DNA of 64,000 bases from Sphingomonas arenae (GTDB taxonomy: Bacteria; Pseudomonadota; Alphaproteobacteria; Sphingomonadales; Sphingomonadaceae), in contig NZ_JAFFJU010000001.1 in NCBI RefSeq assembly GCF_016924655.1, positions 1,054,001 through 1,118,000 of the forward strand, written 5' to 3'. A program made the position numbers and the translations under genes. The notes beneath the pieces were generated by a model. That model had not been told where the DNA came from, searched no databases, and saw only the letters and a list, made by a program, of their open reading frames with translations. Positions 2,418 through 27,110 of the stretch are shown here, one piece after another (positions within the stretch are counted from its first letter, which is position 1; every line of letters begins with the position of its first letter).

Positions 2418-3958
2418 GCGAGACTTCCTCCACGCCGAACGTTCCGCGCACGGTCAATCTCAGCTTGGTCAGCCACACCAATGCGGGCAAGACCACGCTG
2501 GTCCGCACCCTGCTGCAGCAGGACGTCGGCGAAGTGCGCGACGCGGCCCACGTGACGGAGGTCGCGACCGGCTACGTCATGCTCCAGGCCGGCGCCGACA
2601 CGCTGATGCTGTGGGACACGCCAGGCTTCGGCGACACGGCGCGACTGGTGCATCGCCTGCGGCTAACCGGCAATCCGATCGGCTGGCTGCTGACCCAGGT
2701 ATGGGATCGCTTCCGCGACCGGCCCCTGTGGTCCAGCCAGCAAGCGGTCCGCAACGCGAGGGACGAGGCGGACGTCATCCTCTATCTCGTGAACGCCAGC
2801 GAGGATCCCGCCGGGGCAGCTTACATCCCGCTGGAGATGGAAGTGCTGGCATGGATCGGGAAACCGGTGCTGCTACTCCTCAACCAGACCGGACCGCCGG
2901 GCCCCACTTCGGAGGCCGATGAGCGACGCTGGGAAGCCCAGCTCGCTGAACTGCCGCTGGTCAGGGGCCTGCTGACCCTGGACGCCTTCGCCCGCTGCTG
3001 GGTTCAGGAGGGCGAGCTGCTCAAGCGAGTGCGGCCCTTGCTGCCGGCTGACAAGGCCGAGGCGATGCACGCACTGCTCGGCGCCTGGACGGAGCGAAAC
3101 CTGCAGCGTTTCCACGCCTCCATGCGCGTCCTTGCGGAACAGCTTGGGGCAGCCGCGGCCGATCGGGAAGAGGTTGGCGAGCGTGCATTTGGAGATCGGT
3201 TGCGAGGTGCGGTGCTGAAGCCGGCCGGTGGCGACCACTCGCCACAGGCCCGGCGCGCCATGGGTCATCTGGCCGAGCGACTGGATGGTGGGATCAAGAG
3301 CTCGACGGACCAGCTGATTGCGCTCCACGGCCTCAGCGGCCGGGCCGCCCGTGAGGTGCTCAAGCGCCTGGAGAAGGATTATGCGGAATCTGCACCCGCG
3401 CGCGAGGGGATTGCCACCATGCTGGGCGGGCTCGTCAGCGGCGCCGCGGGAGGGCTCGCGGCCGACCTCGCCGCGGGTGGCATGACGCTGGGAGCCGGCA
3501 TGCTCGTCGGCAGCGTACTCGGGGCTTTCGGCGCGAAGACGGCGGCGCGCGGCTACAACATGGCGCGCGGCGAGGGGCCGAACGCGGTGCGCTGGTCCGA
3601 GGAGTTCTTCCTCGGCCTCGTTCGGTCCGCGCTCATCCGCTATCTCGCCGTCGCCCATTTCGGCCGGGGCCGGGGCGAGTGGGAAGAAGGGGAGCATCCG
3701 CTGCACTGGCAGGAAGCGGCGGAGCGGGAGGTGGAGCGTGAACGCGCGGCATGGCGGCGGGCCTGGTCGAGAGCGCGGGAGGGCGAGATCTCCGCGGCCG
3801 ATCCGATCGAAGCCGTGCTGACCCGCTGTGCGAAGCGAATGCTGGAAGAAATGTATCCTGAGGCGCAGGCGGTGTTTGACGATGTCCCGCTTACCCGCGG
3901 CGCTCGCAGCGGAGCTGCGGCGATCAGCAATGCTGGACCATCCCCCGGATGGTCCTAA
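2414..3958 (+). CDS. DUF3482 family GTPase (MMR_HSR1-type G domain)
   Basis: A 514-residue protein. The start is placed at the ATG overlapping the previous stop; the frame stays open upstream but there it covers the end of the DUF2868 gene. The G domain is clear: a P-loop NAGKTTL at about residues 23-29, a G3 motif DTPGFGD near 72, and a hydrophobic strand ending in LLNQTG in the G4 position, where NKxD is usual. The C-terminal half has an Ala/Gly-rich hydrophobic stretch (about residues 335-375) that could insert into or lie on a membrane. It ends about 25 bases before the 3' end of a convergent tRNA gene. The family has no known function; coupling to a DUF2868 membrane protein suggests the two act together. 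Confidence 0.8.
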   Translation: MSETSSTPNVPRTVNLSLVSHTNAGKTTLVRTLLQQDVGEVRDAAHVTEVATGYVMLQAGADTLMLWDTPGFGDTARLVHRLRLTGNPIGWLLTQVWDRFRDRPLWSSQQAVRNARDEADVILYLVNASEDPAGAAYIPLEMEVLAWIGKPVLLLLNQTGPPGPTSEADERRWEAQLAELPLVRGLLTLDAFARCWVQEGELLKRVRPLLPADKAEAMHALLGAWTERNLQRFHASMRVLAEQLGAAAADREEVGERAFGDRLRGAVLKPAGGDHSPQARRAMGHLAERLDGGIKSSTDQLIALHGLSGRAAREVLKRLEKDYAESAPAREGIATMLGGLVSGAAGGLAADLAAGGMTLGAGMLVGSVLGAFGAKTAARGYNMARGEGPNAVRWSEEFFLGLVRSALIRYLAVAHFGRGRGEWEEGEHPLHWQEAAEREVERERAAWRRAWSRAREGEISAADPIEAVLTRCAKRMLEEMYPEAQAVFDDVPLTRGARSGAAAISNAGPSPGWS

Positions 3959-24737: not shown

Positions 24738-25343
24738 ATGTTCACCGGCATCATCACCGACATCGGCACCGTCCGCTCCGCCGAGCAGCGGGGCGACCTG
24801 CGCCTCACCATTGCCTGCGGATACGACCTGGCTACGGTTGATCTCGGCGCGTCCATTGCTTGTTCGGGCGTGTGTCTCACGGTCGTCGACAAGGGCGAGG
24901 ACTGGTTTGCCGTGGATGTGTCGGGCGAGACGCTAAGCCGCACGGCGGCCGGTCAGTGGCAGGAGGGCGCACGCCTGAACCTGGAGCGCGCGCTGCGGGT
25001 TGGGGACGAACTCGGTGGACATATCGTCACCGGTCACGTCGACGGTATCGGCGAGGTCGTCGGCACCTGTGAAGATGGCGCCTCGACCCGCATCGGCATC
25101 CGCGTGGCGCGCGAGCTCGGTCCGGCACTCGCGCCGAAGGGCTCCGTGACGCTCGATGGCGTGTCCCTGACCGTCAACGATGTGCGCGACCATGAGGGCG
25201 AGACGCACTTCTCCGTGAATATCATCCCGCATACCGCGCAACACACCACACTCGGAGACCTCGTTGGCGGGCGACAGCTTAATGTGGAGATCGACGTTCT
25301 GGCGCGCTATCTGGAACGGATGCTGGCTGCTCGCGACTCATAG
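24738..25343 (+). CDS. ribE: Riboflavin synthase alpha chain
   Basis: A 201-residue protein built of two tandem lumazine-binding domains. The first begins MFTGIITDIG with SIACSGVCLTVVD; the second contains GHIVTGHVDGIG and SVTLDGVSLTVN. It dismutates two 6,7-dimethyl-8-ribityllumazine molecules into riboflavin and the pyrimidine precursor. It follows ribD by 9 bases across the end of the repeat. Length is standard. Confidence 0.95.
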   Translation: MFTGIITDIGTVRSAEQRGDLRLTIACGYDLATVDLGASIACSGVCLTVVDKGEDWFAVDVSGETLSRTAAGQWQEGARLNLERALRVGDELGGHIVTGHVDGIGEVVGTCEDGASTRIGIRVARELGPALAPKGSVTLDGVSLTVNDVRDHEGETHFSVNIIPHTAQHTTLGDLVGGRQLNVEIDVLARYLERMLAARDS

Positions 25344-25353
25344 GCATGTTTCT

Positions 25354-25393
25354 GATGTGACTGCGTAGGGTTACATCTCACACCGTGGTGTGA
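25354..25393 (+). promoter_or_regulatory. Palindromic operator-like region in the ribB promoter
   Basis: TCACACCGTGGTGTGA (25378-25393) has perfect 7-base arms around GT. Just upstream, GATGTGAC (25354-25361) and GTTACATC (25370-25377) form a second, imperfect inverted repeat. A plausible promoter has TTACAT (25371-25376) as -35 and GATAGT (25392-25397) as -10, so the perfect palindrome lies between them, the classical position for a repressor. The start codon at 25406 would then be at or near the 5' end of the RNA. The spacer is too short for an FMN riboswitch. Confidence 0.6.
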
Positions 25394-25405
25394 TAGTACT
25401 TGGCG

Positions 25406-26686
25406 ATGTCCAGCACCCTCATCGACCGACTTACTGCTATCGTCGACACTGGCGAGATTAGTCGCTCCGGCCTTGCCCGGGCGGCAGGGCTCCACCCCAA
25501 TTCGCTCCGCAAGCTGGGTGCGCCCGACTGGAACCCGACCGCCGAGACGCTCGGCCGCCTCGAGAAACTGCTCCAGCGCGGCACGGCCGAGGTGATGGTC
25601 GGCCCCGAAGCCATCATCAACGAGGCGCGCAATGGCCGCATGTACATCCTGGTTGACGACGACGATCGGGAAAATGAGGGCGACCTGATTATTCCGGCCC
25701 AGATGGCGACGCCGGATGCGATCAACTTCATGGCCCGCCACGGCCGCGGGCTGATCTGCCTCGCCCTCACTCACGAACGCGTGCAGCAGCTTCAGCTGCC
25801 CTTGATGGCGCGCACCAACGGCACCCGGCACGAAACCGCGTTCACCGTGTCGATTGAGGCCCGCGAAGGCGTCTCGACGGGCATCAGCGCAGCGGACCGG
25901 GCTCGCACGGTCGCGGTCGCAATCGACGCGGCCAACGGACCGCATGCGCTCGTTTCCCCTGGCCACGTCTTCCCACTCGTGGCGCGTCCAGGCGGTGTGC
26001 TGGTCCGCGCCGGCCATACGGAGGCAGCCGTTGACGTTTCGCGGCTGGCGGGCCTCAACCCTTCCGGCGTGATCTGCGAGATCATGCGCGAAGACGGGAC
26101 CATGGCCCGGCTGGACGACCTGATCGACTTTGCGCGCCAGCACGGCCTCAAGATCGGGACGATCCGCGACCTCATCGCCTACCGCCTCAAGAAGGACCAT
26201 ATGGTCGAGCGGGTGGCCGACACCGCGTTCACCAGCGCGTCGGGAGTGCAGTGGCAGGCGCAGGTGTTCCGGGACAAGGCGACGGGCGCAGAACAACTCG
26301 CGCTGGTGCTCGGGCCGCTCGATCCCAGCCGGCCGACGCTGGTGCGCATGCACAGCCTCGATCTTTTCGCCGACGTCCTGGGCGAGCAGAGCTGCCGTAC
26401 CGGACTGTTGCAGGGCGCGATGCGGATGATCGAGGTGGAAGGCTCCGGCGTCATCGTCGCGCTTCATGCGGCGGACCCGGGATCGCTGTCCCGCTCGGCC
26501 GACCGGCGCTCCGGCAAGGACGTGGAGCCGGGCGAGATGCTGCGCAGCTACGGCATCGGCGCGCAGATCCTGGCCGCGCTCAACATCCACGACATGATCC
26601 TGCTCACCAACACGCGGCATTCGCCCGTCGGCCTTGGCGGCTATGGCCTGGCCATCGTCGAAGAGCGCCCCATCCCCACGGAGTGA
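25406..26686 (+). CDS. ribB: HTH-fused 3,4-dihydroxy-2-butanone-4-phosphate synthase with degenerate RibA-like domain
   Basis: A 426-residue protein. Residues about 5-58 form a helix-turn-helix-like module ([19 protein letters not shown], then [15 protein letters not shown]) that is not part of the enzyme family. The RibB domain follows (about 65-260) with the metal-binding [11 protein letters not shown] and [12 protein letters not shown]. The C-terminal region (about 265-426) aligns with GTP cyclohydrolase II but lacks its zinc cysteines, so RibA activity is probably lost. The enzyme makes the four-carbon riboflavin precursor from ribulose 5-phosphate. No ribosome-binding site precedes the ATG. 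A palindrome sits in its promoter, suggesting self-regulation by the fused domain. Confidence 0.92.
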
Positions 26687-26690
26687 TCGA

Positions 26691-27110
26691 ATGGCCCGCG
26701 TCCTGATTGCCGAGGCGCGCTTCTACGCGCACCTCAACGACATGCTGCTCGACGGCGCGCGCAAGGCGCTGGAGGCGGCTGGCCATACCCACGAGACGAT
26801 TACCGTGCCGGGCGCGCTGGAGCTGCCCGGGGCCATCGCCCTCGCGTCCGACGGCGGCGAGTTCGATGCCTATGTCGCGCTCGGCGTGGTGATCCGCGGC
26901 GAGACCTTCCACTTCGAGATCGTGGCCGGAGAGAGCGCCCGCGGGATCATGGCGCTGACCATGGACGGCCTGCCGGTCGGCAACGGCATCCTCACTGTCG
27001 AGAACGAACAGCAGGCGATCGTTCGCGCTGATCCTGCTCAAGGCGACAAGGGCGGGGACGCAGCACGGGCGGCCCTCGCCCTGCTGGGTGTGCAAGAACG
27101 CTTCGCCTAG
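26691..27110 (+). CDS. ribH: 6,7-dimethyl-8-ribityllumazine synthase
   Basis: A 139-residue lumazine synthase joining the RibB and RibD products. Blocks [28 protein letters not shown] (the catalytic His region) and [13 protein letters not shown] are typical. It starts 4 bases after ribB, completing ribD-ribE-ribB-ribH. nusB, which often follows, is absent; instead the 3' end overlaps a convergent SOUL-family gene by 4 bases. Confidence 0.95.

Follow-up and report, generated by a model that had tools for sequence, protein, structure and literature searches.

Riboflavin genes and the ribB promoter

The riboflavin cluster in the 64,000-nt stretch of Sphingomonas arenae DNA analyzed here (the window) raises the question of whether an enzyme of vitamin B2 synthesis can act as the repressor of its own gene. 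A sequence-only reading of the locus had proposed that RibB begins with a DNA-binding module of ~58 residues, that a perfect 16-base palindrome with a second, imperfect repeat upstream precedes the gene, and that RibB represses its own operon. The cluster comprises ribD, ribE, ribB, and ribH. The riboflavin synthase gene ribE (24738–25343, + strand) ends 62 nt 5' of the ribB start codon, and the lumazine synthase gene ribH (26691–27110, + strand) begins 4 nt past the ribB stop codon and is presumably co-transcribed with it. Both ribD and ribE lie upstream of the ribB promoter, which can serve ribB-ribH only.

The predicted proximal operator (O1, 25378–25393) ends 12 nt 5' of the ATG; its sequence is TCACACCGTGGTGTGA, with TCACACCACGGTGTGA as the reverse complement. 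It is an inverted repeat of two 7-bp arms around a GT center that is not self-complementary, and the description as a perfect palindrome was dropped. A predicted distal site (O2, 25345–25360) contains the half-site TGTGA (25356–25360), 33 nt upstream of the TGTGA of O1. The second repeat proposed upstream thus amounts to a half-site, as the right half alone fits the family consensus well. The O1 16-mer has a single exact copy in the 2.76-Mb genome, and the next-best places carry two mismatches. A −35 element (TTACAT, 25371–25376, + strand) and a −10 element (TAGTAC, 25394–25399, + strand) are proposed from the sequence, and the latter would place the transcript start near the ATG. The ribB promoter is probably leaderless, with its main site between the putative −35 and −10 elements. 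The site was also considered as CRP-like and rejected, as the half-sites TCACA and TGTGA of O1 stand in the reverse of the order found in the CRP consensus.

Riboswitch control of ribB found no support in either search. No Rfam family reaches threshold in the window, and an FMN riboswitch was detected in none of 149 family genomes with stricter filters, where 7 of 14 controls were positive. The absence of an FMN riboswitch had been noted from the sequence and holds across this sample.

Domains of the RibB protein

The ribB gene (25406–26686, + strand; ATG at 25406, stop at 26686) encodes a 426-residue protein with an HTH-RibB-RibX arrangement. A Pfam search of the full protein (up to E 10) returned DHBP_synthase at residues 68–259 (25607–26182, + strand; E 1e-83) and GTP_cyclohydro2 at residues 269–422 (26210–26671, + strand), with no match in residues 1–67. 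The DHBP synthase domain has the RENEGD and GHTE motifs, which we take to be its active-site motifs and which are kept in 114 of 114 HTH-bearing relatives. At the three zinc-cysteine positions of the RibX half, cysteine occurs in 0, 1, and 0 of the 114 HTH proteins and in none of 33 proteins without the HTH. A canonical RibA (L117) is encoded separately in the same genome. Because the zinc cysteines of this RibA are absent from the C-terminal part of RibB, with DHBP synthase intact, RibB is assigned to the RibBX type, with RibX as a degenerate GTP cyclohydrolase II-like domain. RibX is degenerate both with and without the HTH, and a gain of RibX as a sensor together with the HTH is not supported.

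The N-terminal module (residues 1–58; 25406–25579, + strand) is conserved in 45 relatives. When scanned in isolation together with 44 relatives (E up to 1), it matched HTH_3 in 35/45, HTH_26 in 34/45, HTH_31 in 22/45, and HTH_35 in 16/45; the best E value was 2.3e-5, and the matches are weak overall. Structure prediction of the HTH, suggested with the sequence-only reading, gave a Cro/C1-type model of moderate quality whose structural matches are weak; the model of full-length RibB is poor (mean pLDDT 64.7). A stand-alone prophage homolog is 47% identical to the domain. Sequence and predicted fold together identify residues 1–58 as a Cro/C1-type HTH, in line with the DNA-binding module first proposed.

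Co-occurrence of the operator and the HTH

A RibB search gave matches in 147 of 149 genomes of the family (Sphingomonadaceae). The set used for upstream comparison held 147 ribB genes, of which 114 encode the HTH (three from an order-wide search) and 33 do not (six being extra copies from genomes already sampled). Nine genomes with a RibB match fall outside this set; by coordinates, four have the HTH (G007, G082, G096, and G124), two lack it (G099 and G109), and three are weak matches (G010, G090, and G135). Sites within 100 nt upstream of ribB were scored as the best match over 14 positions to the consensus TCACATTNNAATGTGA.

The repeat was found to travel with the extension. A site scoring at least 10 of 14 precedes 114/114 HTH-ribB genes versus 1/33 of the others, none of which reaches 11. 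Scores among the HTH genes were 10 (n = 4), 11 (n = 10), 12 (n = 22), 13 (n = 46), and 14 (n = 32); without the HTH, 32 genes scored 6 to 9 and one scored 10. For the first 90 HTH genes, at least 10 was reached in 91 of 1,800 Markov-generated upstream draws and in 3 of 90 stretches from −400 to −200. The consensus was derived from these 90 genes, which makes the 24 obtained after it was fixed a cleaner test, and all 24 scored at least 11. Named genomes contributed 80 HTH loci, 79 of them with upstream sequence, and all 79 scored at least 10, some species being shared with the initial sample. Sphingomonas ursincola KR-99, Sphingopyxis terrae NBRC 15098, and Sphingobium wenxiniae are among the named genomes whose loci have both HTH-RibB and the site.

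When mapped onto a RibB-core tree, the HTH undergoes 9 changes, sites scoring at least 11 undergo 13, and sites scoring at least 10 undergo 10. Of six independent pairs on supported branches, an average of 5.9 show the site together with the HTH, and none shows the opposite (sign test, median P = 0.031). Four genomes (G085, G122, G127, and G133) hold both kinds of ribB, with a good site before the HTH copy only. Symmetric covariation within the site was found at one tested position (P = 0.013) and not at the other, and it is given no weight here. A conserved putative operator in its own promoter accompanies the DNA-binding domain of RibB, the pattern of an autoregulating enzyme-repressor.

Gene neighborhood was considered as a source of this pattern. 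Among the 33 genes without the HTH, 24 abut or overlap ribE (gap of −17 to 14 nt), yet the other nine, with no ribE found upstream, also lack a site scoring at least 11; overlap with ribE was rejected as the reason for the absent site. Neighbors do not explain the presence of the site either, because 74 of 114 HTH genes show no ribE upstream within the locus (some loci being cut by contig ends). The extra ribB copies lacking both HTH and operator that occur beside an HTH copy are L176, L177, L178, L180, and L181 (genomes G085, G133, G127, and G122). A search of L181 for a decayed HTH found none, and another coding sequence appears to occupy its upstream stretch.

Promoter layout and genome-wide specificity

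The position of the sites is conserved among relatives. In 99 of 114 HTH-ribB genes, the proximal site ends 10–14 nt 5' of the ATG. A second site scoring at least 9 lies further upstream in 76 of 114, spaced at 30–33 bp in 58 of those; when the interval from about −150 to −195 was scanned as a control, 2 of 114 reached a score of 9. TGTGA beginning 19–22 nt upstream of O1 has 69 occurrences over the 114 genes. TTGACA-like hexamers (5 or 6 of 6 positions) occur just upstream of O1 in 29/98 genes versus 4/98 shuffles, and a Shine-Dalgarno-like sequence precedes 26/114 HTH-ribB genes versus 25/33 of those without the HTH.

Across 59 whole genomes, 31 sites were found at up to one mismatch, versus one for the reversed pattern. 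By coordinates, 29 of the 31 lie directly upstream of HTH-ribB, in 28 of 41 genomes with HTH-RibB; the ribB sites of the remaining 13, including that of the window's own genome, have more mismatches. The other two near-matches are in genomes without HTH-RibB, one inside a coding gene of G028 that by its sequence we take to be ychF and one in a prophage of G017. A wider regulon was looked for at up to one mismatch in the HTH-RibB genomes among the 59, and none was seen.

Prophage and stand-alone relatives of the HTH

Scanning viral contigs with the HTH profile returned four loci. One of these, L318, encodes a stand-alone 68-residue homolog with 27 of 57 residues identical (47%) to the RibB HTH. 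Opposite this Cro-type gene lies one that matches HTH and S24 peptidase families and that we take to be of cI type. A divergent gene with an S24 domain is likewise present at L175 and in Pseudanabaena phage Pan3. Two sites precede the L318 homolog: TCACATTCAGATGTGT, 13 nt 5' of the ATG, and TCCCATCTTGATGTGA, 31 bp further up; the Markov chance of a site scoring at least 12 of 14 in 60 nt is about 2.5e-4. Elsewhere on the contig, TCACATTAGGATGTGA and TCACATTATGATGTGG form another operator pair with the same 31-bp spacing. Genome G017, a sphingomonad family member without HTH-RibB, carries the same element with 14,330 bp of identical sequence, and the stray near-match of G017 falls in this second pair. 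The G017 prophage is at L468 (G017:C1:206000–225000), with sites at 215372, 215403, 218151, and 218182 forming two pairs 31 bp apart. A RibB-type HTH that is free of RibB therefore has the same predicted sites at the same spacing in a prophage.

Operators were also compared with the recognition segment of the HTH, which is [PA]N[ST]LR in RibB and DTTLR in L154, L175, L319, and L320. Half-sites were counted over ten outer bases in the 200 nt upstream, with 9 or 10 of 10 required. CGCAT-N4-ATGCG sites number two in L154, three in L175, one in L319, and three in L320 (0.01–0.02 expected), with no CACAT site in these four, and L318 has two CACAT sites and no CGCAT site. For L319 and L320, a strict-symmetry palindrome scan had given no operator. 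The stand-alone relatives L153 and L321 have neither a CACAT nor a CGCAT operator in the 200 nt upstream. The operator thus differs with the recognition segment in the five informative loci, with two of eight tested loci blank. In Pan3, where the segment is RNTLN, a different palindrome, GCATATTCTGATATGC, lies 13 nt before the ATG. The Pan3 Cro-type ORF (L352, about 3001–3186, + strand; ON968454.1) lacks an annotation in the record, where the genes shown at this place are on the opposite strand; a second copy of the Pan3 palindrome is found just upstream of Pan3_48.

An extended operator pattern matched 86 stretches in viral contigs; neither a WNPT-type segment nor GLHxN[ST]L occurs within about 330 nt of any of the 80 loci listed. 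One match, L414, shares its contig with L318. In IMG/VR, queries with L154 and L175 returned no closer relative and the L318 query returned itself only; L175 had none in phage records.

Distribution and origin of the fusion

The fusion is narrowly distributed. Among 385 genomes of the class, the HTH profile identified HTH-RibB in four of the five family members listed, and the inspected matches elsewhere were other proteins. Among 147 genomes of the order, it identified 57 family members and three others, comprising two CoaBC fusions and one stand-alone HTH. The HTH-CoaBC fusions (L173, 588–2063, − strand; L174, 306–1790, − strand) come from 2 of 28 CoaBC-bearing genomes of another family in the same order, and no operator was recognized upstream of either gene. 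CoaBC belongs to coenzyme A synthesis and is itself an FMN enzyme, and the two fusions hint that cofactor genes may have captured HTH domains of this kind more than once.

In a tree of the HTH, which is built on few columns, the L318 prophage domain falls next to the RibB domains, and these do not form one clade. A single RibB clade is not rejected (p-AU = 0.28), and the tree is too short to fix a direction. Transfer from phage to RibB is favored because the domain is widespread in phages and narrowly spread in RibB. In the simplest history, a cro-like gene would have fused in frame with ribB, with the start codon, promoter, and operators of cro all retained.

Proposed mechanism and alternatives

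At the level of sequence, comparison establishes the domain, the conserved site, their co-occurrence, the near-uniqueness of the site, and a prophage homolog with the same sites. We consider it likely that the N-terminal domain of RibB is a phage Cro domain, present together with its operators, and that RibB represses ribB-ribH, acting as both an enzyme and a self-directed transcription factor. The N-terminal HTH would read the 16-bp inverted repeat in ribB's own, probably leaderless, promoter. RibB is a dimer, and two of its HTH domains would occupy the halves of O1, with others on the weaker O2, about three helical turns upstream. Bound RibB would block RNA polymerase and lower initiation, limiting ribB-ribH. 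In its minimum form, control would follow the amount or concentration of RibB. The self-repression first read from the window is thus backed by the co-occurrence of HTH and site, from which we infer binding and repression.

Binding of RibB to the site is a prediction, and each genome has many Cro/C1 HTH candidates, so a separate transcription factor might read the palindrome while the RibB HTH does something else or nothing. This is quite improbable given that site and HTH are gained and lost jointly, even between copies in one genome, that the site is nearly restricted to HTH-ribB promoters, and that the gene for a free HTH homolog is preceded by the same site. That the repeat is instead conserved as an RNA hairpin, or in another role that does not involve DNA binding, is very hard to credit. 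An inverted repeat could fold in RNA, but the position of this one, close to the ATG in most relatives, appears to be at or upstream of the transcript start, many HTH genes lack a Shine-Dalgarno sequence, and the sequence itself is conserved rather than pairing alone.

Cro/C1-type regulators can activate or repress, and a second site on the upstream side of the putative −35 element could be used for activation. It is nevertheless unlikely that the HTH, once on the site, acts as an activator or switches between activation and repression according to a ligand, as O1 is close to the ATG and within the presumed −35/−10 region, a position usual for repression. There is a minor but real chance that evolution ran the other way, a sphingomonad phage having acquired its HTH and operator from ribB. 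The host of the prophage that shares the operator is a sphingomonad, and the placement of its HTH beside RibB domains that are not one clade would fit such a transfer. Against it, stand-alone relatives whose operators differ are found beyond the family, including in phage Pan3 and in genomes of other families, and HTH-RibB is absent outside the family among the inspected matches from the 385 class genomes.

Beyond repression of ribB-ribH by RibB, a fuller account is offered tentatively. In one family where no FMN riboswitch was found, ribB may early on have captured a complete phage Cro unit, made up of the Cro domain, its promoter with a leaderless start, and two operators separated by three helical turns. 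An essential enzyme would thereby have become its own feedback repressor, its DNA binding possibly controlled by substrate or by the degenerate RibX half; any metabolite signal of this kind would be an addition to control by RibB amount.

Relation to known systems

Components of this arrangement are known separately. NadR, PutA, and BirA are enzyme-repressors that, like HTH-RibB, join a DNA-binding domain to an enzyme. We know of no case among these or BzdR in which a phage Cro domain was carried along with its operators. Phage Cro repressors of cI/cro switches, as in L318 and Pan3, share with RibB a homologous HTH, an operator before the ATG, and paired operators; they are stand-alone and divergent from cI, whereas the RibB HTH is fused to an enzyme and follows ribE, with no cI partner at the locus. 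BzdR, described as an enzyme-derived regulator in the available part of PMC3602430, also has a DNA-binding domain on an enzyme fold, that of another enzyme. The archaeal RbkR, to which the sequence-only reading had compared RibB, is listed as both a gene regulator and an enzyme in the accessible text of PMC8305020. It is likewise a riboflavin enzyme with an N-terminal HTH, but it is a kinase rather than a DHBP synthase and belongs to another domain of life, and RibB matches no kinase family. RibBX proteins, which combine an intact RibB with a degenerate RibA half in genomes with a separate canonical RibA, are described in PMC10012899 (citing Brutinel 2013), whose available passages mention no HTH. 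In Wolbachia, wBmxR1 and wBmxR2 are HTH factors on ribA that acted as activators in a reporter test, according to the available portion of PMC3518464. They also place an HTH on a riboflavin gene in an alphaproteobacterium, but as separate, unfused proteins. No published account of HTH-RibB was found in the literature searched, the scope of which took in few subscription journals. Enzyme-repressors, RbkR, RibBX, and phage Cro are thus already known, and their union, with the operator carried along, appears to be new relative to that literature.

The HTH-operator pairs, [PA]N[ST]LR with CACAT and DTTLR with CGCAT, make specificity directly testable. HTH-RibB is an unusually clear case of an enzyme gaining the DNA-binding part of a regulator, with a living prophage relative that has the same operators in the same family. 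It offers a specific, testable answer to how a large family of mainly environmental species without a detected FMN riboswitch (96 genus groups sampled) may control the synthesis of vitamin B2.
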